This document shows positions 3,684 through 64,000 of a DNA stretch of 64,000 nt, piece by piece. The notes below the pieces were generated by a model. That model saw only the letters and a list, made by a program, of their open reading frames with translations. It had not been told where the DNA came from and ran no database searches. This stretch comes from Dioscorea cayenensis subsp. rotundata (taxonomy: Eukaryota; Streptophyta; Magnoliopsida; Dioscoreales; Dioscoreaceae). The translations under genes and the position numbers were made by a program. Numbering within the stretch: position 1 is the first letter of the stretch; the number at the start of each line of letters is the position of its first letter. The DNA is taken from NCBI RefSeq assembly GCF_009730915.1, contig NC_052489.1:28947916-29011915 (forward strand). Direction: 5' to 3'.

Positions 3684-6600
3684 TTAAGGTTTTTCAACAA
3701 TCATATGGAGTTCAGAACACAACTGAGATACTTTGGGTTCATTCCAAAACAGTTGAACCTTCTGCATAAGTAATCTACAAGGATGGTCTTGAGGGAGAGG
3801 AAGTTCCTCTGGTAATGGAGGAACAAGGAATGGGTGCCGAAGTAGCTCAGGTATCCGCCACCTCTCATTCCGGTCCCATGCAAGACATCTACGCATCAGA
3901 TCAATGAGCCATGGGTTGGAGACTGGCTCATATACAATTTCGTGGTTCCTATCTGTTATGACTTTAAACTTGGCCCAGAAGGTCTTATATTCTGCAAATG
4001 GTGTCTTACCATAAACCATTTGGTAGAGGATGCAACCAAGGGACCAGATATCTGAAGGACGTCCACACTTGATAGTGTTTCCATTTGCATCATGTTCATT
4101 CCACATGAATGCCTCTGGAGACATGTAGTTCAGTGTGCCAACCTGCAGTTTAGTAACATGAAATGACAAACTACAACAGTTAATTCTACAAGACATTTGT
4201 CAATATATTTGTGTAAAGCCAAAACGTGTATAAAATGTTTAGAATATGAGACCTGTGCATCACGCTGGATGTTGGTTGTATCACTCAAGATGGCTTTAGC
4301 AATGCCAAAGTCAATAAGCTTCAATGAGCCTCTAACAAGTAGAAAAATTTGCAGGTTTCAGGTCTGAGTGCACAATACGCTCCTCGTGTATAGTGTTCAC
4401 AGCTTCAAGCATTTGCTGCACAAGGTTCAAACTGTTTAATGACGTGAAAGGGAAATAAATAACAGCTAAAATATCATCCCTTCGTTCAAGGTGAAATAGT
4501 GTAACATGCCCATTCAGAACTCAGAAGTCAAGGATCTCAACTGGGCTTGCTAAAGAAGACATACTACCACTTGGTGCTTGTGTTATAGCTCCAATAGCAA
4601 AGGCACCCTACTCTAATTCTTAGTGTTGGTCTTATCGTGTGAAATTTAATTTATAAATGTCAGGTATATGTGCAGAGCCTAACTGAGAAAAAAGCTTCAC
4701 AAAAATTAAAAATATTACCACAAACATGCCTTTTGCTACTGCATGTCTGCAGTTCGCATTTGCTGATCCAATAATTCCACACTAAAAATGAAATCGTCAC
4801 AGTAGCCAACAAAGATAATCTAATTAGCCATCCACAAGACACGATCGCTGGCAAGCAACTTCTAGTTTTCACCCATATGTTCACCTAATGGTTCCCCACT
4901 TCTATTGATAACACAAAAAATCCTTCAAAAACAAAATTAAGCAAAGTGAAAAAGACCTGCCAGTAAAATCGCAGCCAATTCTCATCCAATCTCCAGTTTG
5001 AGCTATCCATCTCTTTCCACTTTTGTGAAAGCATGTGGGCCAGATCAATTTCTCCATATTCAAGCACCATATAGATGTGCTCATCATCCTTAATCCTCCC
5101 CTCCTTTACCGTCATGCTGCCATTCACAACCTCCATAAGCAAAGTTTTGTCTGTGACCTAGTTTACATTGAACATTAGAAGTATTAGCGGCACGCAGAGC
5201 AAACTAATTACATTTCACAATTGTTATGAATAGCTGAATTTCAGACAATATGGTGAAGTTCAAAGAAGAACGAATATATCTCGAATTCAAAGAGATTATG
5301 CAAACTCATATACTCATTTGCAGGGTTCTGTTTGCCTATTTTTGGCACTGACAATAATTAATTAATTAGAAGACAACTTCAAGAAAACATATCTCAACAT
5401 TTTTCCCATGGCAACAAGATAATAAACTGTTCGTAAAAATATGATGCCAATGAGAAGATAATAAATCCAACCACCAGCTATTGGCCCTTGTTTCCGGAGG
5501 CATTTCTCTCAAAAGTTAAGATTACAACCACAACACAGAAATACATTTATCAAAAAAAAGCTACACTAACATAGTTCAAACATGAGATCTTACACCAAAG
5601 AATGTTAATAGTCACTCCTAACCATAGACACACCTTTTGAGACAACCAAATGGCTGCAAGAAGATATTCATAGTATTATTGCCATTATTATTACATAATA
5701 GAAGAATGAAAAGGAACTACTGCAAAACTGCGCTTCAAGTGGCAATGAGGGGAATAAATGACATATGTTCTTGTTTTATGGTACTACACATAATGATCCT
5801 GATGAAATGGACAACTCAATATCAATGTGGTTAGTAATATTGCAACTTACAGAGTGTATTGTTTGATATGACACTTCTAAATTTAAAGACATGACACATA
5901 AAACTTCACTTCTAAGTGATACATTTTTCCGTGAAAGAATTCAGTTCTAGTTATGTTCTATTGCAAGAAGATGTTGATTATCAATGGGCTCAAACACAGA
6001 AAAGAGCATACCTCCATAAATATGGAAACAAATCACAGTTTAAAATTCTAGATTCTAAGAAATTTTATACAATGTAGTTGTTCAAATATCAATATAATAC
6101 ATAATTTTCTACCAGATCTAATAGATACCAACAAACAAAGTCTATCTATTAATCATGCAGAAACCTACCAATTGTCTAAAGCAGTCGCACAAATGTATGA
6201 AAACTTAAGAAAATTCTCCTAACAGTTGTTAAAGTCAAGCTGCAGTCTTTTTTGAACTCTTAAAACCCTACATGGGATAGATGCAAATCACCAAATTGAT
6301 TTTTTAATCAGTAGTCTAAATGAACAATTTTAGAAAATGATGTACACAGCTTAAGAACATGCACCTCATAGTCAATCAGTTGGATGATATTGTTTTTTCC
6401 CTTCAACTTGTTCAAATACTCTATCTCCTGACAAAATCCATATGCAGTTGGGTAATCACGACCCTTAAGTTTGATCTTCTTAAGAGCATATATACTTCGG
6501 TCGGCTGATATTACTTTGTGAACTTCACTGCTCCCTCCGCTGCCTATTTTTACCAAGCTTTTTGATAGAGCTTTCCATTAACTTTGAAGAAAACATCTGG

Positions 6601-8653
6601 ATCATACTTCTTTTTACGAGAGACCTTTTCAACTTTGCTTGATTGAGAAGGTTCTAGATCCACATGTGAGGATGGGTTACCTCCCCAGGAACTAGAGATT
6701 GGGGAGCATTTACCAGAATCAGTTCCACCTTTCTCTTTAATGCTGTTACCCATATGAAGAGCCTGATGTTGATGCTGAAGAGCCTCACCTACGTTCTTTA
6801 AACTCCCTTGTCCCTCTTGAAGGCCATAATCCTGGAAAGCTGAAGAGTTCTCCACAGCAGATGATGACATTTGAGTTGGAAAGGCAGTTTGTCCACCCAA
6901 AGGAGCATGTGTCCCCTGGTATGTTGGGCAGGAGTGCACTGACATCGTAGTGGCATTTGAGGCGCCTACAACTGAAGACCGAGTTATTGGAGCCACAAAG
7001 TGATGACTATCCCTTGGTTCATTATGTCTCACTAAATCCTGTTCACTCACAGCTGTTTCGTTGTTCAAACTGCCTCCTCCTCCCTCTGTCAATGCAAGAG
7101 AATTCAAATAAGATGAAATGTCATCCATTCTAATATGAGTTTTCAGCCATGCATCAGCACCTGCATGAATGTAGCCTAAGATAGATAAATAACTATACAC
7201 CAAGCAAGCACACATTAGCTTATCACAAAAACCAAAGCCACATACAATAGAACATAATGAGCAATGGACAAACTATCTAACTCTCATGCTTACTCTAACA
7301 AGTTGGACCTGAACAGCATAAAGTCTGAGACAAATCTCACATAAACAATAAGCAAGTACACATGAGTCAGCAGTAAAATCAAAGCCATATAAACAATTAA
7401 AACATAGAGAAGAAATGAAAATTTATCTAAAACTTCTGCTTACTCTGAAAAGCTGAAACTGAACCAGCATCCCCAAGAGAAGAGGACTGTTGCTTCTTTG
7501 AGACATCCACTGCTAAGGCCTCTCTGAACAGCCCGTAAAGCAGGATCACTGTTCTGTATAGCAAACAAGTTCATGTTCTCATCATTTGCAGCAGTTATAG
7601 TTCCCGTTATTGATGGAGGGGTAAGGGAGGAATCCTCGGCAGTGTTAATTCTAACTTCCACAGCAGCATCCTTCCTCTCCTCTAACGATATTTTAGGATG
7701 GTTTACGGCTCCAACAACCACTTGACTTTGAGGCAATATATTACCAACATTGTCACTAGTCGTGGCAGAGATGGTGGTGCGATTCTTTGAAGACTCTGTT
7801 TGTGAAACCATGACACGAGTTGCACGAGCTGGTCGGGAGAAATTGGACTGCATAGTACCTGAGAGCAAAATCACAGAAGCAGTTCATGAGCACATCAAAC
7901 GCGCACAATAATAATCATCCATCAAACCAACAGAATTAAGTCTTTACACAAAAGAAATTCAAGCAACACATTTGCTTTTACTTATAAATCAAACCCACTA
8001 TAATGTTGCTTTTAACAATTGTCGTTTGTCCTTCAAAATTCATGTAATGTGCTGAATCTCAATTGCAAAGATTCCAAATTTTAGAAAATAAAAACAAATT
8101 ATGTTAGAAAGATCCACTACAGCTGAATCAGGTGCTATAGGTACCGAATGTGAGAAGAATGCCAAGGCTAGAGCACAGTTCATGACTACACAATATAGTT
8201 ATTAACACACTTCTTACTGACAAAAGAAGTCCAAAAATCAGTCTGATGAGCAAAAATCTCCAGAAAACAAGAGACAAAAAAACTTAAAAAGAAGTTCGAT
8301 TTCCAAAGAGACCTATTGAACTAATTTATTCTGAACAAGATACAGAGCAAAAAATCAGCAGAAAAAAGATCTATAAAACAAGAACTACTCAGAGTAAGCA
8401 TCAGATGCACACCAATACCGAAGATCCTTTTGGCAAGAAAACCAAGAAAAGAGATCGAAAGGGGGAAGGGAATACCGAGGGGGCGGTGGCGCTTGAAGAC
8501 GGCATGAACGTGGCGGAGGAAATCGGGAGGGGAGAGGGAAAGCGAGGAGGAGGAAGACGTCGACGACGACGTGATATTGGAGTCTCCGCCGGCGATCGGA
8601 CGGATGGAGATGCTTGACGGCGGAGGAGCCGGAAGGTCAGCCTTCCTTTCCAT
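3684..8653 (-). CDS. MPS1: MPS1/TTK-family dual-specificity protein kinase (frame interrupted by small indels)
   Basis: Spindle-checkpoint kinase that acts at kinetochores in the yeast/animal MPS1 (TTK) family. Exons on the minus strand: 8476-8653, 7444-7858, 6365-7160, 4957-5157, 4253-4415, 3684-4142, all with GT-AG borders. The N-terminal exon ends in [16 protein letters not shown]. The kinase domain shows the glycine loop [11 protein letters not shown], the lysine in [28 protein letters not shown], the activation segment [11 protein letters not shown] and [13 protein letters not shown]. The start is the first in-frame ATG (MERKADLP). Oddities: exon 5 has one surplus base in the A run 4343-4347, in the middle of the catalytic loop. 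Exon 3 has two five-T runs (6547-6551, 6559-6563), each one base too long for the family reading KLGKIG. Exon 2 is out of phase near 7520-7535. Either this copy is a young pseudogene or these are assembly errors; errors are favoured because similar faults occur in five other genes here. Confidence 0.85.
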
Positions 8654-9024
8654 CGGGATCCAACGGCATCTCGGCCGGGTAAGGTGGTCAAGAGAAGACA
8701 AGGAGAGGCTTTTCGTGGATCTCCGATGCCGGATCTCTCCGGCGGTGATCTCGATCCCGCCGGCGGCGGCAGTGAGAAGCTTTGCGCCGTTGAAGGGAGT
8801 GGGATCGAGGAAATTTGAAAAAGGCCTTGACGCCCGCTCTTTGCCTCTTTGGGATGTTTTCCCCCCATTTTGTCCTTTTTTTTAAAAAGCAATTACCTTA
8901 TTTAGGTTTTTTTAATTACAACCCTGTGAAACCTATAATTTCATTTAGTTTTTTGAAAAATAAACTCCATTTTTTTTCTTATATTTGCATAAGGGTATAT
9001 ATGTAAGAATCTTTGATTTAGTGT

Positions 9025-9197
9025 GGGTAGTGGTCTATTGATAGTTGGGTCGCCGATAGAGCTTTTCATCAAATGGTGAGAGTTCGATTCTCGGTTGTCG
9101 CAGATTAGTCTCAAAAGTCCACGTGTGCGCATGCGCCCGCCCATCGACGATTTAGCGAGGCCTTCATTGTCTGCTCCTTTTGTCAAAAAAAAAAAAA
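9025..9197 (+). mobile_element. probable tRNA-derived SINE
   Basis: About 170 bp with a polymerase III box A-like start (around 9028-9045), a good box B GAGTTCGATTCTC at 9080-9092, a short G+C-rich body and a 13-base A tail at 9185-9197. This is the structure of plant tRNA-derived SINEs. Target-site duplications are not clear. It lies about 370 bp upstream of the kinase start codon, within likely promoter space. Confidence 0.7.
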
Positions 9198-9376
9198 CAT
9201 TATTACTATTTTTAAAACTCCGAATTTCTAATTTGTCCACTCAGACTTCTCAAAATTAAATTGTTGATCATCAAAGTTTTAAAAAAAGGAATTATTTGGG
9301 TAAAAAAATAATTAATTGTTCCTCGTAATCACATCATTCACAACAAATTTTTATGATTATTTTTGCTGTTAAATAC

Positions 9377-9667
9377 TTCCTCCATTTTTTTTTTTATTAA
9401 TTTATATAATTCATATTGATTAAAAAAACTGATTGAAATTAATTAATAATCTAAAATTTATAAAAATTATATTAACTTTTCAATTTTACCATATTAAAAA
9501 AATATACTTTAAAAAATTTTATAATTAAATATTATTTATTAAAAAAATTGTAAATGTATATTAAATATAACAAATAAAAAAATAATATTTAATTTATACA
9601 AAAATTTTTTTAAATGAACAAATACAAAAAAATTCCAAAAATGTGACCAGTAAAAAAGGAAAGGAAG
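9377..9667. mobile_element. possible degenerate Stowaway-like MITE
   Basis: Very A+T-rich block that begins TA-CTTCCTCCATTTTT, close to the terminal repeat of plant Stowaway (Tc1/mariner) MITEs. It ends with a weakly inverted counterpart (AAAGGAAG) followed by a TA-containing flank. The terminal match is imperfect, so this is a tentative call. Confidence 0.35.
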
Positions 9668-9842
9668 ATGTAATAGTCTAAATAAAGAGAAATCTTCCAT
9701 TGACCCTGTAAAAAATGTCAGAAAATTACATCTAGTTGTGATTGATTAACAGAGGACTGGTGCCATACAGCTTAACAAGAATCCATGCAGTTTTGTAGGC
9801 TTATCATATCATAGGCCACGAATGATCGCCGATAACATTCAT

Positions 9843-14247: not shown

Positions 14248-14278
<31 letters not shown>

Positions 14279-15269: not shown

Positions 15270-18200
15270 TCAAACCGGAACTCGATAAGAACGATCTACC
15301 ATTTTCAAAATAAATAAGTTTCCTTTGTCACCTCTAGAGATCCTGCAAAACCAAATGAAAAAAATTAGAAACTCCACCACAATCAGTAATTTTTATTTTA
15401 AGCATACATGCCGTCAGAGTAACTGATAGCTTTCACCACAAATGAAGTTTCAGATATATAAAGTTTTTTTTTTTTAATCTAAAAAAAAATGCTAAAAGAG
15501 GAATGGTAAATTTATTGTTTAGATCGTGTATGGTCAGGTGTGCAGTCAAGTAGATGCTGTATGCAATCGAATCGACAAAATTGAGACTTGAGAGTACATG
15601 GCTGAAAATAAGTATTACAACCTCTTTGATTATTATAAACGATGAACAGAGTAATATGGTGGACATATATGAAAACATCATTACCTTATCTCTTCATCCA
15701 AATATGTGATCTCCAGTTCACCTCGACCACTTCCAGGTGATTTTATAGGAATCTGTTGATGAATTTGCAGAGATATAATACCATTTAAGGGTCATCAAAG
15801 AGTTTGTTGTGCAAAAAAGAATGGATGCGAGAAAACAAAGGGATTAGTTCGTAAGAAAATATTAGCTATCAATTGAAGCGAGATCAATAAATTTGAACTT
15901 CATGAATCAACCACCTACCAACCCAAATATCTTGAAAGTATCAAATCTGACAGCCACCCTTCTCGCATTTATGGGCACCAAATCAGCTGTGACCTGCAAA
16001 GGCAAACTTTATTTGAAGTACAGATTATCTAGAGTGACCAAGAAACAAGACAAAAAGTACAGAAGAACCTCAAATCATAAACAAGTTCAACAGGATTTGA
16101 TTCAACTCTTGTGGCTCACTGGCTCTGTAACTCTAATGAATATCACTGGCAATGGCATGATTGAGGGCTTGGCAGACTAGAAAGGTATATTCAGGTTTTA
16201 GACAAAGAAAAGCAAATTCAGAAAGAACATCGAAAAATAAGTATCGAAATTGAGATACATGTAATTTGGATCATTCTGCTGTACTGAATGTGAGCCTAAC
16301 GCTTGAAGAATTAAACCCAAATTTAAAGAAATAAGATGCATAAGTACCTGATTAAAATAAGGCCAGGTTTCCATATTTTGAGCTCGTAACGTGTCTGCAT
16401 TTATGGCTTGATAAATTTTCCCATTGGGTCGTAAAAATTTAGGTCTCTGCAATATTAAAAAGAACAAGTATATTAGGTGAATGATCCATGCCCTTCAAAT
16501 ATCACGTAATCAACACTCAAGCACCGAAAGAAAAACAGAAGAAAAGACTGTTAGCCATTCACAGCAGCCACTAAGAGTATACTCCAGAAGAAAGAAGGTG
16601 AATGGTCAAGGCAATGACTGTGCATGACCACTAGAGGGTATTATGGGAAATTCCATATTGATACTATGACCAAGGGTTCACGTGCAAGGATTATATCAAG
16701 GGTTAGCAAAGGGGATCTGGGGAGAAAAAGAGAAAAGAAAGAAAGCTTGATAACCTTACAGGTTGGCCTCTATCTTCCAATTACTTTCTATTAAAGACAC
16801 TTTCTTTATGATCTCTTAAAGTTTTAATAAAACAATGTGCAACGATATATAGAACACAGAGATCATGCAACACTGAAATTGGTAATTGGCGTACAAGAAT
16901 GCTGCCTATGCAGTGTAGTGCTATTCATGCAGTGTGGCTCTTTGGAGATCAGATCAAGGTACAGAATGACATTGTAATTGCAAAACAAGCCAATCTAAGA
17001 AAATTATATAAGTAAAACTATACAACTATTACCAAAATAGGTACAACCAACATGAGCAATCAATTAAACACAGAATATATGGATCTTAGTCTCATATGAA
17101 AAGCTCCAAGAAAAATAAGGCAAAAGAAAGAAGATCATTACTAAGTAAAACATACTGTATAGGCATCAACTTGACATTAACAGTCATGAGAACTCTAGAT
17201 GAGAATATTTTATACAATTAAACAGAAAAGCTGAATTAAAAAAGGGGGACAAGCTTTTACTTGAAAAATCCACACTAGGTCAAGCAAATGAAAAGAAAAC
17301 CTGGGGTTGCAAAATTGAGTCTTGAAGTTGTATATAGAAGCTCCCATTTCCCATTAAGCAGATCAGACTTGAGTGGCTCCTTGATTGTATTGACAGCCTC
17401 AAGTTGGCGAGCAATCTAATCAAGATATAAGCCAAATGCATCAAGAATTAACGCAATATCTCGTTCAATATCAATAAATGCTAGAAATTACAAAAGCATG
17501 AATCATTTGTAATAGTGATTTGACCGCCATGCAAGATAAAGCCCAACTGAACATCATACAAAACAACATCTTTGAAGCTTCTTGATAACAAAAAGTCAAC
17601 AAAAGGAAACAAATGTCAAGAACTAGAGCAATATCTCTCTCAGAGACTATAAATGCCACATTTTTCAAGCAACTACAAAAGAACAAGCCACCTGTAAAAG
17701 TGCTTTTGACTGCAATGCAAGCCAAACATTGTCAATAATTAGAGCAATATCTCCTATGAGGACCATAAAAACTACATTTTTCAAAAGAACACAACATCAC
17801 AAAGTCAGTCTTAATATTAATTTCACTACCATGCATGGTGAAATCAACTCCCATATCAAACAAAACGACATCTTTAAAAGTTCTTGTGAAACATTTTCAG
17901 AAAATAAAACTTAAAAGAAAAGGTGAACAAAAAAAACCCGCATACCTGATCGACCATTTCCTGGTCCTCAGGAGAGGCCTCAGCGCCGCGATCAAGAGGG
18001 GCAATTGCCTCAAAGAGCTCCTCTTTCAGGGCATCCTTGCTCTTGCCTCTCTTTCCGATGAAGGAAGGGAAGAAGGAGACACTAGTCCTCCATTTGGCGA
18101 TGAGCTTGTCAGGGGTTGCGGAGAAAGTGAGAGGATTGGTATTGCTGGACAAGGGACCATGGCAAGCAAGATAGGAGCAGGAGAAGGAGGAGGAGGAGGA

Positions 18201-32140: not shown

Positions 32141-32187
32141 CCGAGATGCTGCCATTGAAGAAGCCCGAGCTCGCACGGCGTGCCTTC

Positions 32188-35100
32188 ATGGCATCTCTCG
32201 CCTCGATCTCCGCCCTTGTCGCTGGGCGTCCTTTCGATCGCGCTCGCTTTCCCTCCCCTCAGCGAGCCAAGGGGTTCAGGGTCTTCGCCCGGACCGAAGG
32301 CAAGGACGCCCCGATCGAGGAGAAGAAATCCCTGGCTGTCGCCACCGGGGAGCTGTTCCTTGGCCTCGCGTCGCGGCTTATCAGGACACGGCGCCCGGAG
32401 GTGGATTTTTTTTACCCCAGGAAAGGGAGGTCGGTGGTTGTGGAGGATCCGACGGGAGAGGATGTGGTTTGGGAGCAGCGGGAGAAAGGATGTGGAGGCG
32501 GAGAGGGAGGGGAGGATGGTGACGAGCCCTGGGTTTAGTTTCTCTGCCGCTGGGTTGTTGTTTCCCTACCATCTTGGTGTTGCTCAACTGCTTCTTGAGA
32601 AAGGCTACATCAAGGTGACTTCTTTTTCTTTCTTTCTTTCTTTCTTTTTTTTTTGGTTGATTGAATTTTAAGTATTCTGTTCTTCATTAGCAAGAGCTAG
32701 ATTCTGCATTGCATTGATAACTACTAGTGAAACTCTAATTATAAAAACCATGTATTTAATTTAGAATTCTGTAAACCTAAAGAATTTTGAGATTGCTCTG
32801 TCTGTTTGTCTGGCGGTAATAAGATAAATGGTGTTTAATTTGGAATTCTAGAAACCTAAAGAATTTTGAGGTTAATCGTTTATTGGTCGGGTGGTAATAA
32901 GATGTATTGTGTTTAATTCGAGTTCTTAAAACCTAAAGAATTTTGAGAATCTCATCTATTTGTCTGGTGGTAATGAGATGAATGGTGTTTAATTCATGAT
33001 TCATGATATTTGTAAATTGTGGGCCTGTGGCATAGAGTTGTTTGTATTGACTGGCATTTAGTCTATATTTATTTGAACAAATGCAGATAAAGATGGATGG
33101 TGTTGGGGTAGTGATTTAGGTGACCTAAAACCATGGTACAGCTTTCCAATTTTTAACATACCTGCAAAAATTACCAGTTTGTTTCATAGAACAAATGGCA
33201 CCAAGAAAAATTATGTAAGCTTCGTATCTAGATATGAAATTTATGGTAACATTTTCATATGTTGGCAACATGATCTATTTATTTAATAAGGAAATATACC
33301 TTTTTGGTTGGATGGTGTATTGTGTGGCACATTTTAGATTGTGTACTGAAATATCTGGTGTATTTGTGCTGCGATGCCTTTAAGATGCTGTTTGTTTAGG
33401 ATTTATCTGTTATTATTTGTTCATTTCTTTCTTGGCTGCAGAATAGCTTCTATTTTCAGCATTAATTGTGTGTTGTTTTATTCTTTCTATTTCCATTTAT
33501 TTATTAAGGCAACCATTCCTTTCTGATTTAGGAAACCACGCCTTTGTCTGGCTCATCAGCTGGAGCAATAGTATGTGCAGTGATTGCTTCTGGAAGCAGT
33601 ATGCAGGAAGCCCTACGAGCTACCAAGATTCTTGCTGATGATTGTCGACTCAATGGCACTGCATTCCGCCTAGGAGTATGTATGATCTCTGATGAATTTG
33701 TCAAAGTGCTCATTATATTTCCAATTTACTTCTTTTGAAGAAATCCTATAACAAATAACTAGGTTCTCTTGCCTTCAGAACAATTTGTTTATGCGTATTG
33801 TATCTGCTGTATCTACTGTTTTAATTGTGACCACTTTGGATGAAAGATTTTTAAGTTTGCATTCAAGGTAGATGTCTTCTGTTAAGTTGCAATTGATCTT
33901 GTAATTTCTGAATCTTGTTATGCGCAGGCAGTCCTCAGGGATGTTCTTAACAATTTCCTGCCTGATGATGCACACACAAGATCCAATGGAAGGGTTCGTG
34001 GTAAGGATAGAGTCTCTCATTTTCCTTTCATTTGGTGTCTTTAGTTTGCTTCTTGCACTTTTGAGGTTGTGTTGTACATCTAAGATTGAGCTAAATTACT
34101 CTATAGTTGGTGAATGTTTCCTTATTGTACAAATGAAAGAATGAATGTCCTTGGTCTTTGATATTATAAAGAAGCACATAATCATACCCAATCATGTGAA
34201 GTCATGGAGTGCCCATGTTAATTGAGCGGGCTCTACAAAGGAATATTAAGGCCTAGCTCAAAATTGGGGTTTACTGCAAGATCTTAAAATCATTTTACAC
34301 ATTAGTACTGATAATTGCTAACTTCAATATGTGCATTTCTGGAGACTTAAATGGAGTTACTGAGAGCAGTACCACAAGTGTATTATGCTTGTATTTTAAC
34401 AAGGTGATGATATATATTGGGTAGCACCTTTTGTTTACCACATTTATGTTCTCTAAGGCTGGTATATAAGATGTATGCCTTGATAATGTCCATTTACAAT
34501 TGAAGTTCTGAAATTATATTCTTTATTCAAAGCAACAATCTCTCTTGGCCCCTGAAATGTTTGAGGTTTTGTGGTCTGAAAAAAATTATAAATATTGTAC
34601 CTATGTTAATTAAACATTTCTGAGTTAGATTTTTCTCACTCATGGTTATTCATGCACGTCCATGCAAATGATACATGAGTACCTAGCTTTGTAAGTTACA
34701 TTTATCTGAGAATATTTCAACATGGTGTGCTAGCTTTCTAGATTCAAAATGTCATTGTTTAAGTTAGTGTATTTTTTCTTCTTTATTGTCATTGAATTTT
34801 TACATGATAAATCTCTATATCCCTTATGTGTATCTAGATATTATTTTCTTGGCTGATCCGGCCCTCGCTTTCCCTATAGTTGCTATCACTCAGTTATTCT
34901 GGAGACCAAAGGGTCTGCTTGTGGATCAATTTGACTCCAAGGAAGACCTTATCAATGCAGTCTTCACCTCTTCATTTATCCCTGGGTACGTTTGTGTTAA
35001 ATATTGCTATTGTGCTTTATAATATAAACTTTGTGAGATTTTTGAAATATGCAAGATATGGCCATGACCTTCAAGATGTACCCTTGTTGGTTTAATGACT

Positions 35101-37890: not shown

Positions 37891-40220
37891 TTATTCCCGC
37901 TTATCTTCTTCTGGTTCATCTTCAAGACTAAAAACATCAACCATTTCCTTCTTCTCCAGCTTGACTAGTGACACATCGCCGGTAAGGGATTGAGATTCTT
38001 CATCATCAACATCCTCTCCAGCTTCACCCGAGTAGGCGTATCTGTTTTGGCATGTGAAGATTGAGATGTTTTCTTGGCATAAATTTAAAGATCACCAGGG
38101 TAAGACATACCTTTGAGAGCTTTGAGATGGTGCCCAAAGATAACACAAAACACATAACAACACAAAGGTTAGAATGTCCCAAAAGGCAATGATGATCCAA
38201 GCAGTTTGCCACCGTTCACTGAACGGATCAGTAGCTTTGAAATAAACCTGTTTAACATGTGTTTTAGATCAGACGATATGCTCAATATCTGACAAAATGA
38301 GAAACTTAAATACAATCATGTGGGAAGACAGCTTCTTATTGTCAGATAAACTAAATAAGGAGATTTTCTGTTGTGAAAACCAAGATTGATCTCAGCATGG
38401 AGAAAGATTAGCGAAAGCAATTTAATGATGCCATAGAAAACTAACAAGTTTGAAGTCTTGGAGATTCACAGAATGGTATTTACCACAAAGCTGTAATACA
38501 AAATGGAAAAAGAAAACTGTTGCCAATTTCCCTTGCATTGATAAGGCAAACACAGGTTAGTCAAACCACAGAGACAATGTAATTCATAGGATGTTCAAAC
38601 AGAGTCCAAATAAAAGTTTCTTCAGTTTACCAATCCAAGATGCTGAGAAGACTAAGATATTCAAATGAACCACAAAAGGTAAACAATGTTCTTAATACAC
38701 GAAAAAAAAGGGAACAATTTTGTACCTCATATCCAATCCAGGCAACTGAAGCAATCACAGCAACCGCAAGAGCATTAGTAAATTTACGGTAAATGTCCAA
38801 TTTGACAGAACTCCGCCTTGCCTGAGAAGTACAAAGTTACAACTGAAATCAGGCCTGAACCATAGAAAAATGAACAAAAAGAAATAAGCATCAACATGAT
38901 CTCTAAGACCTATTTGTCAAAAAGAACAATTTTAGAAAATCATACAGCTCAACAGATCCACACAGAACCAGGATATACCTGCAGCTTTTCCAATGTTCGA
39001 GAGAGGGAAGTAAAAATCCAGAGTATAAGAAAGGCATCCAGGAGTGCATCAGGGAGGACAAGAAAAAGCCTAGCTTTGCCTGAAATATCACTTATGGTTC
39101 CCACATTTTCTGCGATATCCAGCAACTCAGAAGCTACAAAATATGTTACGCCAAGAAGAAGCACCTTAGAGGTAAGACCTCCAAGAGTTGGCCGGACAAC
39201 ACCATATCCCATAGAGATAGATAATATGAGCAGACGTGAAACTGTTTTCCTTATAGCGCCAATGGTAACAACCCAAGTTGTAATTACAACAGGTCTTATC
39301 CCAGAGTTATTAAAGTTCAGATACTCAAAAGTACCAAAGTGTCATTTCAAATAAGCCGAGTGCAATGACAAGAGTCATCCAATTCTGTATTGGCAGTATA
39401 TCCTTCCAAAACCTCACGTACTGTGCAAACCAAATGATGCTAAGAAGCAGATATGACAGGGACATGAATATGTAAAATGTCATTAGTGGGGCCATCCTCC
39501 CTGGTAGATAACCATCGGGATTTTTCCAAGAGGTCTTTCCACTCATCTTGAGTCCTCTCAACTTCGGATCACAGGAAATAAAGAACAGGTTGTACATTCC
39601 AGTCTTCGTAATGTTAACCTCTTTGGTTTCCATTTGTGTGGATAAATAATTTGCAACAAAATCCGTATTTAGCACTACTGGCCAGTTAAAATCCACAGAA
39701 GATGGTCTTCTAATTACTTCTCCTTGTCTACAACCCTCAAGCTTTGCAAGATCAGGGGTACAGCATATTGACCTTTGGCCACCATAGGCAGATCCTCCAA
39801 TGTTATCCCTATCAGCTGCTTCAAATATAATAGCCTGTATCAGTCCAGTACTACGCTCCATACCAGAATGTTGATCAGCTGCTTCCTTACTCCTCCAGAA
39901 TGTTATGTTCTCAAACCTGTACAATAATTTTGGATGAAAGGGTACTGAGAAGTTGGTTATAGTATAAGAGCAATGGGGTACAAGATGATTATGTGAACAT
40001 ATAATTTGGAAGGGGGTACCAAGTTCCACATCATAACCCAAGTAGAACCTATTTGGCTATAGTCAAAGCTTACAACCTCAAGTTCTGTACTATATATAAT
40101 ATACAGGTTGACATGCAAAGCTAATTACATACGAGTGACAACATCATTTATGTTCTCATGTGATGACAACCAAAGAAAGCCACTCGATTAAGTCAATACA
40201 ACCGATACACATGCTTAATT

Positions 40221-41854: not shown

Positions 41855-44800
41855 ATGGGGGAGCAACAGCAGCCCTCCCGCCTACTGAGAATCCCCAAAG
41901 AAGGCGAGCGGATTCTCGCTCCTACGCGCCGCCCCGACGGCACCCTCCGCAAGGCCATTCGCATCCGCGCCGGCTACGTTCCTCCAGGACGAAGTCGCCA
42001 TCTATCAGTCCAAGGGCACCCTAGTAATCCTTCTTCTTCTTCTTCTCTATGCCTTTAATTTCTGATTTCTGCGCTTGTGGTTGTGGTCATTTGCTTATTG
42101 TGCTGTGCTTTTAGTTGAAGAAGGAGGCGCAGCTCGAGGGCCCGCCGGGGTATGATCCGGCGGTGCATGCCAAGCCGAAGACCAAGTCGGCCAAGAGGAA
42201 CGAGAAGCGCAAGGAGAAGAAGCAGCAGGTGATTCTTGCTTTCTTTTATTTTTGCACTTTGTTCTGATAAAAAAGAGCTATTTTTTATTGTCTAATGAAG
42301 AATAATGTTGCAAAATTGTGACTTGATTTGATGAGACACTGCACTAAGCTTTAGTTTTGGGTTTTTTTATATCTATTATGCATACTGTTTTTGGATCTTT
42401 GAGCATGCATATCTTGTGCCCACAGACTCCTCAGAAAGGAAATTGACACTAGTTTTAGAAGATGGTCGTTTAATTGCCACTTTGCTGTTGACATTTATCT
42501 GATTCTTTTCCTACCTAATCCTGATGATTATGATTTCAATTAATCAATAATTGACTTGTGAGAATTATTGGCTATGAAATCAATTAATAATCAACAAGCA
42601 AAGATTATGTATTTTTCTAATCAATTATGACTGGCCGGAAGCAGCAGAAATCAGTGGATTCATGGGTAAGTTCCTCGCACTAAAAAAAAGAAATGGTTAA
42701 GGATCAATTCCTTATTCACAACCTCCTTTTGGAAGGGTATTGAAATCCTATACCTAGGAAGAATTTTGAGTTAGAATTTCTAAGAGTTGTCATTATTTGA
42801 GAAGAAGCACTTGTAATTTTCATCCTCTAGCCATTTGCTGATTGCTTTTTGCACTTGAGCATTTCGAGTTAGATGAACTTCCATCATAGCTCATGAGGAC
42901 CCCTCTGATGAAGTCAGTCTTGCCAATTTTTAATTTGAACTCAATAATATTTTCAGGAATTACATAGAGTGAAGAACTTATCTCCACACCAAGGAGCAAT
43001 TTTATGTGGAAATCTCCCAAAAGCTCTTGCCTTTTAGGTAATATTTTCTTACCCAGTTCACCAGAAGTGTTCTTTTGAGTTAACAACCTTCAAGCCATTT
43101 TAAAGTTTAAAACCTTTTAGATGTTCTTCAATCGATAGATGGGTTTTCCAATGTTCTTCATCCTCTAAAGTCATGTCTCAACGGATAAGGATTAACTAGT
43201 GACAAGGCAATCCCGCATGGTTTTGCACCAGTTTTCTATAGTGATATGCTCATGCTTTTAGCCACTTTGTAAAATTAAACCAGTGCAGAGTGCTAGTTAG
43301 AATGACATTTCATGATAATTTTATTGTAATATTAGTAGAGAATTTCTATCTTCTCATAGAACAATGATTTATAAACCCATTAAGGGGGCGTTTGGTTCAA
43401 TGTAACTGTAAATACAGTGGATTTCTAGTTACAATGTAACTGAAAATCCATGGATTTTATAATACAGTGCAGTCAAATCTAGTGTTTAGTTAAATGTACT
43501 GTAGATGCTGTATTATAGGATTTTGTATTTGATAAGAGATATTTATAAATTTGAAATTAATTTTTTTTTTACATTATAAATATTTTAATGATTTTAAGTA
43601 CTGTATTAATTAATTTAACTATTAATTTTATTATTAAATTAGTTATCAAATTTATCAGTATATTTATTTATTTATTTTATTTTATTTAATATTTTTTAAA
43701 TTTAATTTTTAACCCAATAAAAAAAAGTATTTTGAACTTTTCATATATTTTTAGCATGTTATTAATGATTTTAATTATCGCATTGATCATTTTAACTCTT
43801 AATTTTATTATTAAATTAATTATCAAAGTAATTATTAAATTTATTATTAAATTTTATAATTTTTCACTCCACAAAAATATCCATAAATATTTAATCATAT
43901 TTGTTTTTCTTTAATTGGTCACATATAGGTCACAAGTTATGCATTTGAAGAAATTTAAAGATAAGGGATTTCGTTTTACGCCCAATTTGGCCGTAAAACC
44001 AAATCTCTCAATGGATGTAATATGAGTTACATTGGTTTTTGAAATCCTGTGAACCAAACACTGGATTTCAGAAAACCCAGCAACTCAAGTTACATGTAAC
44101 TCAAAAACCCTCCAAACAAACACTACCTAAAATGAAATGACCACCGATTTCTCTATTGAATCACACCTATTGTACTGTACAACTCCCAATACTTATATTG
44201 TTGTGTTCAGTCATGGTGTGTTTGAAAATCTTCTCCCTTAGATAATTCATGCATGATAGGCTTTTTCTCAATAATAGTTTAACCATGTTGAAACTTTTTA
44301 AAATTGAAGAAGTTTGATTCTGATCATCATATCAAGTGAATGAGGCAGTTAATATCTCTTGCCAGCTTACAGTCCTAATCCTAATTGATTAATTGATTAC
44401 TAGCAACTTCATTACAATTTACTATGGTTATTTATTTATTTGTGGTTACATCTGATCATAGAATCTTGTGATATTTAATTAGGAACTCAAAACACCACAA
44501 CATTCTATGGTGTGAATAACCAATATTAACCTATATGAACTCAGAATCATTCTAATGCTCTATTGTTCTGAAAAACAGAACATTGAAATGCATTTATGTG
44601 TGCATTTTTCAAGATTGGGCTGGAAATGTGACCAATATGTTTTATGGCAGGCAGCTCTTGCTGCGGCAGATAATAAAGGCAAAGATTTGGATTCAGATCA
44701 GGCCGAGGTGATAGGAACTACAGATGGCCCTTCTGAACTCATCCCTCTTGCAGAAGAGGAGCATGTGGAATCAGTTGTTGACCAAATGGATACCCTCACT

Positions 44801-55914: not shown

Positions 55915-56012
55915 AGGTAGTGCTCACCCAAGGGCTCTAGTTATAATTCTAATATAGGTAGTGCTCATCATTGTAATTCTAATAGGTAGTGCTCACCCAA
56001 GGGCTCTAGTTT
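55915..56012. repeat. short local repeat, unit AGGTAGTGCTCA
   Basis: AGGTAGTGCTCA occurs at about 55915, 55956 and 55984. The first and third copies extend identically through CCCAAGGGCTCTAGTT, and TAATTCTAATA links them. Confidence 0.8.
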
Positions 56013-56645: not shown

Positions 56646-56811
56646 TGTTGAACTCTCATTCTTTCAACTTGTCTCCCTCATGTACATGCAACCCCTTCAT
56701 TCTATTTGTATTAGGTTATGCATTTAAGCGGATAAGTAACCATGGGATACTCTTTGTTTTATAGTGAAATAAATGGATCATAAGCATGATTGTTATGCAT
56801 TTAACATAAAT

Positions 56812-57163: not shown

Positions 57164-58307
57164 AAAGAATTATTTTCCCACATTTATCATAACTTATAAA
57201 CTTTCGGATACAAATTATATCAAACCGAAAAGACAATAATGACGCTCTAGTTAACACCTAGAGCTATTAAACCTGGCGTCCAAATTGTTCATCAATGACT
57301 AAAAGATCAAAACAATACAAATAACATCTTACTAACATAGATCATTGCCATCCATATTAATCACAGATCCTCTCGCAATAGATCATAGTGACCATGGAGA
57401 TAGAAACACTGTCAAATTCACAAACAATAAGAAAAATATATGCAAAAAATAGCAATCACAACTCTTTTACCACTGATATATTGTCAAACTTCATATAAGA
57501 TACATTTGATTTTATTACTTGAGCTACTTAATCTACACTGTTGCCTAATTTTATCTCGCGTGCATTTAATTTATAACTTCAACTACAAGAAATCAATCTA
57601 TATATTTTAACAAGAAAAATCAATTTCAGCATTTCATAACAAATATGACCATATGAGAGATAATTTATTTATCACGCATAAACAAAAAACCAGACATTTA
57701 ACCTTAAATAAAAAGTGTTTATATAGCCATTGATATATGCATATTGAAAGCAATGCAACCCCATCAAGCAACATCTTCTCTTCATTCATCTTTAACATTA
57801 GTAATTACATATAATTTTATTTCAAGATGTTCCATCTCTTGGACGATCATAAATAGAACTTGAATAATTCCACCATCATTTAATCGATACTTTAAAATAA
57901 AAAAATATGTTCCATAAGCACTAAATTTCTTAAGACATACTACTCTTTCTCCTCAAAAAAGAGAAAGGAAACAAAATTAAAATCAGGAACAACAACAACA
58001 ACAACACGCTAATCAATGAGCACTGTGTAGTGCATGCAATCTGAAACAAGGGCAAGAATCAAAGCACCAAGAAACATCAAATCAACCAAATATAAATCCA
58101 ATGAAAACAACATCTCAAAAGCATCATCAATGAAACATAAACAACAAACCTGCAAAAATACCCTAACAACTCATAACTCCCGCAACCAGATGAAAAATCC
58201 CAATCCCTGAAGCATCTTCCAATTCCAATGCAGCCAATATATAGGAATGTCTCAGCAAACCATGGCAGTGTTTGCTTGCAGGAAGGATAAACTATTTTAG
58301 ATAGTGG

Positions 58308-58335
<28 letters not shown>
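58308..58335. repeat. (GA)n microsatellite
   Basis: About 14 GA units bordering the G+C-rich block. Confidence 0.95.
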
Positions 58336-58338
<3 letters not shown>

Positions 58339-58339
58339 C

Positions 58340-58540
58340 CAGCGTGCATGGGAATGAGGTTGAAATCCGAGCCATGGACGTGCAGATGCCGGCAGAGAAG
58401 AAGGCGTAGTTCGCGCTGAAAAGCGCGTTAGGGCACGCCCTTGTTTGTACGGTATGGCCGATCCTTCCGGGATCCGCACCAGGACAAGCTTGTCCCTGCC
58501 TACCCCTATCCCCTACCCTTACCTCTACTACCCTGCCTCG
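58340..58540. other. G+C-rich block dense in short perfect stems
   Basis: Within 200 bp of A+T-rich surroundings there are four adjacent inverted repeats. 58412-58427 is a 6-bp stem CGCGCT/AGCGCG with a GAAA loop. The others are GGGC-AC-GCCC at 58431-58440, GATCC-TTCCG-GGATC at 58460-58474, and the 14-bp palindrome GGACAAGCTTGTCC at 58482-58495. Open frames through it show no known domain. It could be a promoter-proximal island, a non-coding RNA gene or a transposon end. Confidence 0.45.
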
Positions 58541-58853
58541 TCGCATTTTAAATTATTAAATCACATTTTTTTTTATTTTTTATATTGCGTATATTTTTAC
58601 TGACAATTACTTGTGCAAAAAGAAACAAATAAATAAATAAAGATTCAGTGTTTTATATAAAGTGTTGCAGAAAAAACGGAAGGACAAAGGATATGGGCTA
58701 TTTATAGCTAGGGGGTAGGGGGAGTAGGGAGTGGAGGATAGGTTGTTGGGGTATGGGAATCTTTTTGACCAGGAGAAGCATGGAAGAAGGTGAAGGGATG
58801 GAGAAAAGGTCACCTGATGATGATGAGATTGAGGTGTAGCCGAGTGTGTGAAA

Positions 58854-58882
58854 GGAGGAGGAGGAGGAGGAGGAGGAGGAGA
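58854..58882. repeat. (GGA)n microsatellite
   Basis: About nine GGA/GAG units followed by a short G+C-rich stretch to about 58980. Confidence 0.9.
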
Positions 58883-59454
58883 AAGAGTGCAGTCGAGTCA
58901 AGTGCAGTTGGCGCATTGTCACGAGGGGGCGCGAAACTAGGCGGCATTGTCGGTTCAAAAGCCGGCTGCCACGCTGAACACCATTTGACATGATAAAAGT
59001 TTGCTTTTAGATTTTTATTTAGTTTTGTTTGCATTCATTCAAACGTTGTGAAGGAGCTCAACACACTCACTCACTCACTCACTCAGTCACTGTTATCATC
59101 ACTCGTCACAACCCATCACCTTTCAGTGTCAACATTATAATAATATGCTAAAAAGCAAATCATATGTTTTAAAGGGTTTTTTTAATAAATTGTTGAATTT
59201 TTGGGAAAAAATATTTTTATTAGTGAATTTTGATTTGTTTTGGCATGCGCATTTCATTTGTAATTCAGTCGATGGATTAGCATATTTATTAACTAACGTG
59301 AAAGTTTGAAAAAACCCAATCAATACTTTAAGTGAGCATTTCAAAACAAATTAAAATTTAGTGATATCAATGATATTTGATCAAAATTCAATGATTTACT
59401 AAAATAATTAATCATTTAAAAAAATAGATATATTGTCCGAAATACATTCAAATA

Positions 59455-59630
59455 ACCGAAGTGTTTATAATCTAGTGGTATTTAACCCTATATAAAAACA
59501 AAAGTTGAGATATTTAAAGATTCCAAGCTCACGAGTCGTTGAAAATATTGATGATAATAGGTCACCAGTTATGAGTGTAGACTCGTGCGTATGTCTCTTA
59601 TGTATATAGTGCTTGTCACTCTCGTAAAAA
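59455..59630 (+). mobile_element. possible degenerate SINE
   Basis: ATCTAGTGGTATTTAACC resembles a box A region. A weak box B-like GATTCCAAGCTC follows about 45 bases later, and the segment ends in a C+T-rich stretch plus a seven-base A run before (TA)n. The promoter boxes are diverged. Confidence 0.35.
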
Positions 59631-61226
59631 AATATATATATATATATATTAAAAAAATTATATGTATAAATGGAGAACCATGAGAATAATTTTTAGATAA
59701 TAGATTACCTTAAAAAAATATATTGTGGTAAATTAACCAGACAAAAAGTCATAAAACCGGTGGATTAAGGCATTCAACTGAATTGTTTTTCTCTTAGAAG
59801 TTGAGTAAATTTCAGGACAAGTTATGCATAATTCATACAGGTGGGTTAGTACAGTCCAAGATTCCTACTGTAAAGATAACTGATAACTCATCAGTAGTGA
59901 CTGATACTTGTGCACAATGGAAAGATACTTAGCATCCCAAAAGTACTTCTTTCTGCTTTAATTATGCACTTTGGTTTGTGCTTCATATTTCAAATTTTAA
60001 CTTTCCCAATTTGCAAATATTTATGCAGTTGCATCCGTATTACAGAGGCTTCATAATAGCATGCATTCCATGAGCATGAACATTCAAGACAAAAGTGGCT
60101 TCCCATTTCTTTTGTATCTTTTGTCTGTGAAAACTTGAATGGCACATGGTTCACATGGCTTTGCTAAAGCACTGTGATGGGAAGTCTGAATAACTATTTG
60201 TACCTCATAATATCTTCATGTTAAGTAATACAAAAAAATAATTATACAGTGATAATCTTAGATTTTTTGACATTATATTTTCTAAATATTATAATTTTTA
60301 TTGAAAGAATAAATTAAAGAAGATATGAACTATTTTATTTTATTATTTATTTATTTATTTATTTATTTTATAAGATTGACAAATCAGTTATTTTAACTAA
60401 TGTTATACGAAAGATTTATTACTTAACTTTTTTTAACAAAATAAATAAATCATAATTTATTAAATAAAATAGGAACAAATAAATAACAATTTGATAGCAG
60501 AGAAAGCACAAAAACATCAGAATAAATTAATTCCAGACAGAATATTTCAAAGAATACTTTAATTTATATGAGTTTTTAATAAAAAAAACAGATCATATTT
60601 GGTTTATGGATTTCATACTAAAGTTAATTCAGAAATTATTTGATATGGTATGTGTAATATCTATTGAGTGATATGGTTGTTAATTTAGATTTTAAAATAA
60701 TTATGAGATACTAATACAGTGAAATACTATCTATCGTATAAACCACATAGTGTTTCCACATAAACACTAGATTTTATGTTGATAAAACAAAAAAAAAGCA
60801 ATAAAATAATTATATATTTTAAATCATATGCTAATTTGCATTCAAAACTACTACAAAGGTAGTAATATGTTGAATATATAAAAATACAATTAATAAAATA
60901 ATCATTTGTATTTATATATATTTAAACGTATTAATTAGTCAATAAAAAAAGTACTGTACACTTATTATACTTATCAAACTTTTTAGCATGTTGGAGTTTT
61001 TGGATAAAATCATAAAACTGGAGAAAGATCTATGAATAATTTCCAAAACATATATATATATATATAATAATTATATAACTACAAAAAAGAGGTTAGTATA
61101 TTAACAAAAAAATAAATAAATAAAATACCATGTCTATAATAATTCCACACGTGTACCTCCAGTGGATGGTGAAGGTGAAATCCATTTCCTATAATTATAA
61201 TAATCCATTCAACGAATCACGACCGC

Positions 61227-61234
61227 CCACGTGG
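61227..61234. promoter_or_regulatory. G-box (CCACGTGG)
   Basis: Perfect 8-bp palindromic G-box 101 bp upstream of the EamA gene start codon. A second ACACGTGT-type core lies near 61148. Both are sites for bHLH/bZIP factors. Confidence 0.6.
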
Positions 61235-61334
61235 CACTCTCTCCGCAGCCTTCCAGATTTATCCTGTACTCCTTCCTTTCCGTCTTGTTCGCGCTCTCAG
61301 GTCTCCACTCTCCGGCGCTACGGCGACGATCTCC

Positions 61335-64000
61335 ATGGCTTCCCCTTCAAGCTGGGGACGCTCTCCGATCGTCGCCGGTACCGGCGCCGCCGCTGCGGTG
61401 CAGGCTTCGCTCACTCTCCCCACCACCTCCTCCCCTCTCTCCGTTCTCCAGACGAAGAAGATCAAGAGACTTCGGATCCGCTCCTCCTATGGCTGCCCTC
61501 CTGAGAAGAATCCTCCCAACTCCGAGCCCTTGGTTTGGTTGGAGAAGGGATCTAAGACTCTGCCCCTCTCGATTCCGAGATCTGGTGATTTTGTGTCCGT
61601 GATCAGGAAGCTGAGCTCCGATTTAGGGATTAAGTACTTCCGCAAGCGCCCTCTGTGGAAGAGGATCTTCTTTGCTTCCAAGAAAGTTAGGAGTCTCATC
61701 TTGCTTAACGTCCTCACCGTCATCTATGGTAACTACCTCCTCTTTTCTTTCAGTTGTTTCTGGTATTTTTCTTAGAGTATCTGAAGAATTTTGTTATGGA
61801 CCTTTGACCATCATCTATAGTTCAACTCTGAGAACGAATGCTGTTTTGTTTTGCTTTGATTCCGGTGACAAGTCGCTACAGTGACTATTGTAGCAAGCGT
61901 TGTCACTCCATAGATTTGCTTGCATAGTTGCATGAAGGATGTAGGATAAAGTTAAAGATTTGTTGTCATCCATTGCAGCACTAAAATGGATTTTCTATTT
62001 TTTTATTATATATGTGTATGTATATGTTTTCTTTTTCTTGAGAAATGTGGGCATCCTCCATCTCCATCTTTTACTTGGGGAGAAATGAAATACCAACTCT
62101 CTTAGATAGATTACTGTGTTGATCATGTGAAAATCTTCGTTTTTGAACCCGTGTAAAAATTGTTGGCTAATTATATCATCCTCATTTTTACATGTCCATA
62201 TATTATTTGTAAGAGCTGTGAATAGCAATGGCATTATAGCATTCTTTTATTTGCGTGAATTTTGATAATCCTTGTCAAAGGTACGACTAACAATGTCATC
62301 ATTGCAATTATTTTATATGTGTAAATTTTCATGTTTCTTTATCATACTTGTCATAGTTGTTACCGATGACATCATGACATTCTTTTATTTGTGCAAATTT
62401 TGATGTTATTTGATAACATTTGTCAAAGCTTGAAGAACAATCACATCATGTAGCGGTCTTGTTTGGTAAAAAATTCTCATATTTACTTGATAAGAATTGT
62501 ATTATTGTTGCATAGTTATTTGTTTTCTGAGTTTCAGTTGATTCCTATATATTTCAGCCAGTGATATTCCAGTTCTGAAGGAGGTTGAGGATGTTATGGA
62601 TCCTGCGGTCTTCACTGCTGTGCGATTTCTGCTAACTGCCATTCCCTTCCTGCCGTTTATTTTCCAAACACATGGGGATTGGAAGACTCGTTCATGTGGA
62701 CTAGAATTAGGTATTTGGGTAAGTCTGGGCTTCCTTTGTCAATCCCTTGGACTACTCACCTCTGATGCTGGGCACGCATCTTTCATTTCTGCAATCACTG
62801 TAAGATCCCTTTGTAAATTTTTCTTGTGCATGTCACAGTAAAGACCTTGATGAACCACGCAAAAGATTTAAAGAGATCCATAAAAATAACCAGGTAATTG
62901 TTGTACCCATGATTGATGGTTTGGCTGGAGCAAAAGTGCCTGCCATTACCTGGTATGGAGCTCTCTTATCCCTGATGGGCATTGCTATGCTGGAGCGTTG
63001 CGGTTCTTCAGTTTGTGTAAGTGTAGCGCCTTGTTTATCTTCCGCATTATACTGTATTATGCAAACCTTTTTTTCCCTATATTACAAAGACAAAGGCATT
63101 TTTTTTATTTCAATTCTCTACATGTCAACGCATAGGATATTGTCAGCAAGTTGTATATGCATTTAAGTATCCTGCATGTGCTTTTTAAGTCCATGTATGT
63201 TGTTGCAGCAACCATGTTATGAGAGCATATTCGAGTCTTATACTAAGATAAGCTTGCTGTATGGATGTGAATTGATTGATAATGGCATGCACTTCTCTTC
63301 ATAGTGGCGGCAGATCATGAAATTTTTTGGTTCATAGATCTTTCCAATGTCACTGTAATGGAAGAAAGAGATGTGAATTGGGTGGATGCACTTTGGCTTA
63401 TGGCCAAGAGCGGACCATGATTGAACATGATTGCTTTACTTTCCTGTTGGTCATTAAAATTGTGATTCCTATATGATCTTGGGCCTTCAATTGATTTTAT
63501 GGTGAAACTGTTAAACCCACGCCTGATCATCTATTTATTAGCTAATAGAAAGTAACTTTTTTTTTGTAATCAAAGGTTTATCCACGTTCCCCAAAAAGTT
63601 TTGATCTTTGACCAATGGTGGACTCAACAAACTTAGCTTGATTTTCCTTCCCTAGGTTAATTTTTAATTTCTAGCTCATGGAATTTCTAATAGTTTCTAG
63701 CTCATAAAATTTCCATGAACGGATTTTGATCGAAAAAACTATGGCTGTTGCCTTTTAACCATTCCAAGATCTGATGCTGCGGTAGCTTTGGGTTTGGAAT
63801 GCATTATTTTGTGTAGTTTATTTCGAAAGAGGTGAAGCTCTGAATCTCATGAGTGACAATTCAAATTTTTTGAAGGTAGGTGACGCTCTGAATCTCATGA
63901 GTGCAATATTTTTTTTGGAATCCATACACTTCGTACTGAGCATATTTCACGAAGTACAAATCAGGATAAGTTCTTGGCTCTATTGGGCTATCAGGTATGT
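61335..64000 (+). CDS. EamA/DMT-family transporter, plastid-type (5' part, continues past window)
   Basis: Drug/metabolite transporter superfamily membrane protein. Visible exons: 61335-61728, 62558-62799, 62894-63016, 63876-63994; the last ends at a GT donor and the gene runs out of the window. The N-terminal about 110 residues are Ser/Thr- and Lys/Arg-rich, as in a plastid transit peptide (MASPSSWGRSPIVAG). EamA helices then include VRSLILLNVLTVIYASDIPV, MDPAVFTAVRFLLTAIPFLP, ELGIWVSLGFLCQSLGLLTS, DAGHASFISAITVIVVPMID, WYGALLSLMGIAMLERCG and VGDALNLMSAIFF. Oddities: in exon 4 the T run 63909-63916 has eight T where the family reading IFFGIHTLRTEHISR needs six. The first 30 bases of exon 4 are duplicated 51 bp upstream across the acceptor. 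The substrate is unknown. Intron 1 contains imperfect tandem repeats. Confidence 0.85.
62230..62460. repeat. three-copy imperfect tandem repeat in EamA gene intron 1
   Basis: ATTCTTTTATTTGCGTGAATTTTGATAA-type units recur at about 62240, 62310 and 62381. Each ends in CTTGTCAAAG or a variant, with a period of about 65-75 bp. Confidence 0.7.
63829..63910 (+). repeat. 51-bp tandem duplication spanning an intron-exon border
   Basis: GGTGAAGCTCTGAATCTCAT at 63830 and GGTGACGCTCTGAATCTCAT at 63879 begin two copies that continue with GAGTG and CAAT. The downstream copy is the start of EamA gene exon 4. The upstream copy lies in the intron just before it. Confidence 0.85.

Follow-up and report, generated by a model that had tools for sequence, protein, structure and literature searches.

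Two known kinds of assembly fault are closest to what we describe here. The first comprises the indel errors of long reads described with Kastor (PMC12007338), in which short indels, mostly at homopolymers, split intact genes into apparent pseudogenes. The second is haplotypic (false) duplication, described with Mabs (PMC10548655), in which near-identical neighbouring contigs resemble paralogues. The yam window of our study (the whole 64,000-nucleotide stretch of Dioscorea rotundata DNA) shares features with both. As far as the consulted part of the Kastor paper goes, its errors concern small genomes and its insertions are tied to no particular homopolymer, unlike the window, which belongs to a plant nuclear genome and where, also in contrast to those errors, gains outnumbered losses (9 to 2; sign test p = 0.065). 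Compared with the cases in the consulted part of the Mabs paper, the yam copies are putative haplotypes and the two contigs part abruptly past 28.9 kb. According to the portion of PMC9010478 used here, the conserved gene families missing from D. rotundata number 595 and those missing from D. alata 53, a comparison that is relevant if it was obtained from the same assembly. None of the papers listed by our literature search on frame errors and haplotigs, which was weak and is no proof of absence, named D. rotundata.

A first-pass annotation had named nine frame faults in conserved exons of the window and attributed them to uncorrected assembly errors. Three-frame translations, inspected by eye, confirmed that the frame does change at all nine sites (9/9; Table 1), in plant genes that otherwise look intact. 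Rather than mutations of the plant, the frame breaks are almost certainly one- or two-base errors that remained in the assembly consensus, chiefly at short homopolymers.

Table 1. Genes, lesions and duplicated sequence in the window (positions are those of the window; +1, +2 and -1 denote bases gained or lost).
Feature	Position	Strand	Details
Duplicated stretch	-19155 to 9695 (in-window 1..9695)	+	Start of contig B; alignment with contig A
MPS1 (TTK-like) kinase gene	3684..8653	-	Six coding exons by gene model (2212 b); Pkinase pieces; PDB matches
MPS1 last exon, frame end	3690..3694	-	One base longer than in contig A, either a gain here or a loss there; retrocopy unlike both contigs
MPS1 gain	4343..4347	-	+1 base vs contig A and vs C12 retrocopy
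MPS1 gain	6547..6551	-	+1 base vs contig A; site outside retrocopy coverage
MPS1 gain	6559..6563	-	+1 base vs contig A; site outside retrocopy coverage
MPS1 cancelling pair	6683..6704	-	-1 at 6683, +1 at 6701 vs contig A and retrocopy
MPS1 loss	7515..7535	-	-2 bases vs contig A and vs retrocopy
Fibrillin (PAP_fibrillin) exon 2	17301..17415	-	115 b between two phase-0 junctions; putative +1 near 17325
Patatin-like gene, first exon	32146..32614	+	469 b (1 mod 3); putative +1 near 32488; family name from first-pass annotation
CAND7-like GOST 7-TM gene	38952..40056	-	+1 at 39327-39330; Pfam and paralogue
PYM (Mago-binding) exon 1	41855..42023	+	169 b, exon 2 at phase 0; putative +1 near 41984
EamA-type transporter exon	63909..63916	+	T run, probably +2; C6 paralogue; family name from first-pass annotation

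We found that the start of the window lies in a stretch of 28.9 kb that is present twice in the assembly, as the first part of two neighbouring contigs, A and B. The second copy opens contig A, at a distance of 68 kb upstream on the same pseudochromosome and in the same orientation, and the copies are 97-99% identical. The alignment of contigs A and B begins at base 1 of each, and 1000 N precede each contig. Aligned end to end, the two copies differed by 217 SNPs and 218 indels; 131 out of the 218 indels involved a single base, and in 95 cases out of these 131 a run of three or more was lengthened, so that the short indels are concentrated at homopolymers. The stretch contains three genes, namely a MORN-repeat (PIP5K-like) gene, an oxysterol-binding-protein-like gene and MPS1, and in all three the frame breaks fall at differing sites in the two contigs. 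In particular, the MORN-repeat exon is open in contig A (424 aa, 7 MORN stretches), whereas the frame in contig B is shorter and holds 5 MORN stretches; the oxysterol-binding-protein exon is open over 181 aa in contig A and split in contig B; and the PH-domain exon is open over 128 aa in contig B, while that of contig A stops at 77. Contigs that each break genes at different places fit neither decay nor ordinary alleles.

All the PDB sequences that MPS1 matched at E values up to 1e-10 were TTK (22/22), and its internal splice sites are canonical, which bears out for this gene the earlier statement that splice sites are intact. At the gain at 4343-4347, the Pfam kinase profile continued from positions 98-129 in one frame to 131-153 in another, the second match being weak (E 0.091). 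Contig A has no extra base at any of the three clear MPS1 sites (3/3), a comparison with a separately assembled copy that, among the six affected genes, covers MPS1. Because this second assembled copy is without them, the extra bases are best taken as sequencing or assembly mistakes, and the attribution to uncorrected errors gains further from the differing breaks of the two contigs. An intron-less retrocopy of MPS1 on C12 covers one of the three clear sites (4343), where it agrees with contig A; its length equals that of contig A at all four covered window-specific lesions (4343, 6683, 6701 and 7520; 4/4), although it has gaps of its own and is thus an imperfect judge. Once the lesions assigned to each contig were discounted, the longest MPS1 exon had equal length in contigs A and B, and the first five of the six exons together gave a whole number of codons. 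The fault placed near 7530, formerly given as ambiguous in sign, is real and can now be read as a two-base loss in the window relative to contig A and the retrocopy. The cancelling pair at 6683/6701 and the difference at 3690 had been missed in the first-pass annotation. By our count the named clear sites are gains, as had been proposed, but two out of the 11 assignable lesions are losses and nine are gains, while the difference at 3690 can be read either way; the argument from purely +1/+2 lesions was therefore wrong, and the conclusion drawn from it stands without that argument.

The remaining lesions lie in genes outside the duplicate, and they were judged by different lines of evidence. 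In CAND7, the GOST_TM profile was matched over positions 1-54 and 52-170 in two frames of the window and in a single frame in the C7 paralogue, in agreement with the proposed extra base. The surplus proposed in the EamA exon likewise agrees with a C6 paralogue that reads through in one frame, and the spacing favours +2 over -1; thus, the T run is probably two bases too long, one too short being the less likely alternative. The proposed gains in fibrillin and PYM are supported by frame and exon length, since neither length fits its phase-0 neighbours, and in PYM the Mago-bind domain ends shortly before the frame break. The candidate gain at 32488 in the patatin-like gene was read from the reading frames. 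Pfam searches gave no match in either frame of the patatin exon, for the EamA pieces tried or for the second fibrillin piece; at these sites exon length, reading frame or a paralogue took the place of a Pfam match. DNA searches detected no second copy of fibrillin, of patatin or of an EamA exon adjoining the broken one, and for this reason duplication by itself leaves the persistence of errors there unexplained. No close paralogue of fibrillin, patatin or PYM was found. The 10.3-kb DNA query used for CAND7 and PYM yielded the CAND7 paralogue, but it was dominated by microsatellites, its own locus was absent from the matches, and it is uninformative on the copy number of these two genes. The genes that had been called clean were covered by the open reading frame lists and by one Pfam-matching piece each.

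We propose that the 28.9-kb stretch was assembled twice, probably as two haplotypes placed in tandem as neighbouring contigs, and that each assembled copy retained its own set of indel errors. The reads were likely error-prone long reads, and short-read polishing was probably poor here, partly since duplicated sequence maps non-uniquely. In MPS1 the coding sequence is affected about as often as the rest of the stretch: the density of 1-2-b indels is 4.5/kb in the MPS1 coding sequence and 6.0/kb in the rest, against 1.4/kb and 8.0/kb for SNPs, a contrast tempered by the SNP-poor MPS1 introns discussed below.

A different reading, which we consider very improbable, takes contigs A and B as the true haplotypes of a heterozygous clonal crop, each carrying real frameshift mutations. 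Two haplotypes could plausibly differ by 217 SNPs over 28.9 kb, and the sequenced individual was heterozygous according to the portion of PMC5604175 drawn on here; however, indels are about as numerous as SNPs across the whole stretch, the breaks in three genes lie at different sites in contig A and contig B, and downstream genes without a second copy are affected as well. The MPS1 coding sequence (2.2 kb) differs between the contigs by 10 frame-shifting indels, no in-frame indel and three SNPs, which is hard to match with real alleles. In the rest of the stretch, which includes exons of two further genes, 214 SNPs and 159 short indels (1-2 b) were counted (Fisher p = 0.02 against the MPS1 coding sequence). 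This contrast is weaker than it appears, and the depletion of SNPs in exons, considered as a second argument for error, lost force once the MPS1 introns were compared, to the benefit of real alleles: the introns are SNP-poor too (six SNPs and eight 1-2-b indels over 2758 b; coding sequence against introns, Fisher p = 0.42), and the low SNP count in the MPS1 exons is therefore at least partly regional. A restricted form, which seems to us slightly less credible again, keeps the contigs as true haplotypes of the clonal yam and treats only some of the frameshifts as genuine; these would be a burden of broken alleles, of somatic origin or inherited, concentrated in one chromosome segment and masked by transcription slippage or by the other allele.

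An equally slim chance attaches to the view that the 29-kb tandem duplication of the MORN-repeat/PIP5K-like, oxysterol-binding-protein-like and MPS1 genes is real and that these genes have since decayed into pseudogenes. Copies that are 97% identical, about 68 kb apart and in the same orientation would suit such a duplication, yet both begin at contig base 1 directly after a 1000-N gap, which points to assembly. Pseudogenes would be expected to show broken splice sites and a mixture of in-frame and out-of-frame indels, whereas the MPS1 splice sites are intact and 0/10 of its coding indels are in-frame; moreover, fibrillin, patatin, CAND7, PYM and EamA are affected though they lie outside the duplicate. 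Finally, it can be set aside as wholly implausible that the protein is restored by a programmed frameshift, ribosomal or transcriptional, at the short homopolymers: several lesions do fall within runs of four or five A or T, but others are at two-base runs or outside runs, the sites are not conserved in the second copy or retrocopy of MPS1 or in the CAND7 and EamA paralogues, which are without the shift and, in the case of the paralogues, open in one frame, and we know of no programmed frameshift site in these gene families.

As residual assembly errors, the extra bases matter only as spoilers of gene models and bring no new biology. Should the window belong to the public reference assembly of D. 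rotundata, the breaks in some of its conserved genes exist on paper only, and near-identical neighbouring contigs can mimic gene duplications; such loci need a read check before this assembly is used to call pseudogenes, gene loss, copy number or loss of function. The damage looks local and the error rate not uniformly high, since most PPR loci elsewhere in the genome, 77 out of 85 among the best-scoring matches listed, have long open frames. This survey took one row per locus from a list of 152 matches (86 rows, 85 loci after merging) and is a biased sample; the matches of a kinase search were so interspersed with introns that they yielded no rate of frame breaks. A duplicate pair on C7 includes a PPR gene with the same kind of one-base lesion.

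We examined the three-frame translation of the window by eye and found a frame change inside a single exon at all nine places where the first-pass annotation had reported a fault: MPS1 (a TTK-like kinase gene) at 4343, 6547, 6559 and near 7530, fibrillin at 17325, patatin at 32488, CAND7 at 39327, PYM at 41984 and EamA at 63909. The assignment of the kinase gene to MPS1 is supported by its last exon, for which all 22 PDB sequences matched at E up to 1e-10 were TTK. Its kinase profile was split, with positions 98–129 in one frame and 131–153 in the next (the second match was weak, E 0.091), and the GOST_TM profile of CAND7 was likewise divided over two frames (1–54 and 52–170). The paralogues of CAND7 on C7 and of EamA on C6 read across the position of the break without a change of frame, and the spacing in the C6 paralogue favours a gain of two bases over a loss of one in EamA.

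Contigs, loci and exons considered (positions without a contig name are window coordinates)
Feature	Position	Length	Remark
Contig A	C19:28860458-28927759		upstream neighbour of contig B
Contig B	C19:28928760-29034452		carries the window (C19:28947916-29011915)
MPS1 gene	3684..8653 (-)
MPS1 retrocopy (L027)	C12:14541244-14542274		intron-less, partly deleted
PPR gene copy (L048)	C7:76201-77400
PPR gene copy (L049)	C7:146101-147300
Fibrillin exon 2		115 b	one base over length for phase-0 neighbours
PYM exon 1		169 b	one base over length for phase-0 neighbours
Patatin exon 1		469 b	1 mod 3; one surplus base likely

A DNA search of the genome (584,211,761 bases, 2,249 contigs) recovered a 99% copy of the MPS1 gene 68 kb upstream. 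Gaps of 1000 N were present at three places around the window, and contigs A and B aligned in a single piece from base 1 of each over 28.9 kb, giving 29,183 columns that contain 217 SNPs along with 218 indels. The alignment stopped abruptly at window position 9695, after contig A base 28894, just downstream of MPS1. Among the indels, 131 were of one base, with 73 extra in B and 58 extra in A. This duplicated 28.9 kb is probably a retained second haplotype. Haplotypic duplication is well described (PMC10548655). The arrangement on C19 is a tandem double copy, lying partly in window 1-9695 and at C19:28860458-28889351, each copy starting at contig base 1 after a 1000-N gap. Parts of the contig A tail matched stretches of contig B at 75–81% and were repeat-like.

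Contig A was one base shorter than the window at 4343, 6547 and 6559. The retrocopy on C12, 85–91% identical to MPS1, had the length of contig A at all four sites it covers (4343, 6683, 6701 and 7520), though it carries gaps of its own and is therefore an imperfect judge. Against both, the window showed +1 at 4343, -1 at 6683, +1 at 6701 and -2 at 7520. The last fault, previously ambiguous in sign, is thus a two-base loss, while the cancelling pair at 6683/6701 had gone unreported. At 7060 the extra base belongs to contig A, since the retrocopy agrees with the window; at 3690, by the stop codon, the contigs differ in coding sequence and the retrocopy is unlike either. Once the lesions assigned to each contig were discounted, the longest MPS1 exon measured 794 b in both, and the five exons that precede the final one together came to 1,752 b, which is divisible by three.

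In the window, nine gains (4343, 6547, 6559, 6701, fibrillin, patatin, CAND7, PYM and EamA) stood against two losses (6683 and 7520) in a tally that leaves out 3690. The earlier argument that bases were only gained fails on these two losses, judged by contig A and the retrocopy, and the surplus of gains is itself not firm, given a two-sided sign test p = 0.065.

As to alleles or decay, the MPS1 coding sequence (2,212 b in our own exon model, internal splice sites canonical) showed 3 SNPs between the contigs and 10 indels, all of them frame-shifting, versus 214 SNPs and 159 indels of 1–2 b in the rest of the shared stretch (Fisher p = 0.02). The MPS1 introns carried 6 SNPs and 8 indels of 1–2 b in 2,758 b (p = 0.42 versus exons); they are SNP-poor too, which makes the shortage of SNPs partly a regional effect. 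Strong evidence still stands in the density of frame-shifting indels in MPS1 exons, which is about that elsewhere, in their excess of three to one over SNPs there, and in the differing break sites of the two contigs. The frame breaks are almost certainly residual assembly errors, as first proposed: contig A is free of the three clear extra MPS1 bases, and the breaks in A and B lie at different sites.

The shared stretch also carries an oxysterol-binding-protein-like gene and a MORN-repeat gene, presumably PIP5K-like going by its other exons. On contig A the MORN frame spanned 424 aa and held 7 MORN stretches, against 331 aa and 5 stretches on contig B, and the frame running into the Oxysterol_BP domain spanned 181 aa on A and was split on B. 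A frame that takes in the last part of a PH domain (a weak match, below the Pfam cut-off) reached 128 aa on B and met a stop at 77 aa on A. Further gains and losses were seen by eye in these frames on both contigs. When the fibrillin stretch, the patatin exon and an EamA exon adjoining the broken one were searched for at the DNA level, none had a second copy, and the patatin exon matched elsewhere only in pieces of 32–42 b; the errors are therefore not confined to duplicated sequence.

Elsewhere in the genome, 8 of 85 PPR loci drawn from the best-scoring matches listed had an open frame shorter than 300 aa. On C1–C20 this held for 4 of 72 loci, and on small contigs for 4 of 13 (Fisher p = 0.017). 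Most loci sampled were open, so the damage looks local, and it is perhaps commoner on small or duplicate contigs. The PPR gene pair on C7 (99.3% identical, 70 kb apart) differed by seven SNPs and one base over 1.2 kb, the copy with the longer run being the broken one.

GCF_009730915.1 (D. rotundata TDr96_F1 version 2) is a 584 Mb assembly built from Nanopore reads. Homopolymer indels in long-read assemblies, which make genes look like pseudogenes, are well described (PMC12007338). The D. alata authors report that 595 conserved families are missing from D. rotundata versus 53 from D. alata (PMC9010478), which fits assembly error and is no proof of it.

Finally, a carbonic-anhydrase-like (dioscorin-like) gene cluster lies at C14:1.23-1.57 Mb, with relatives on the small contig C801, which may be a second haplotype. 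As would fit a Dioscorea genome, a piece of one of the clustered genes matched Dioscorin 5, a protein of yam tubers (PDB 4twl, E 1.1e-29).
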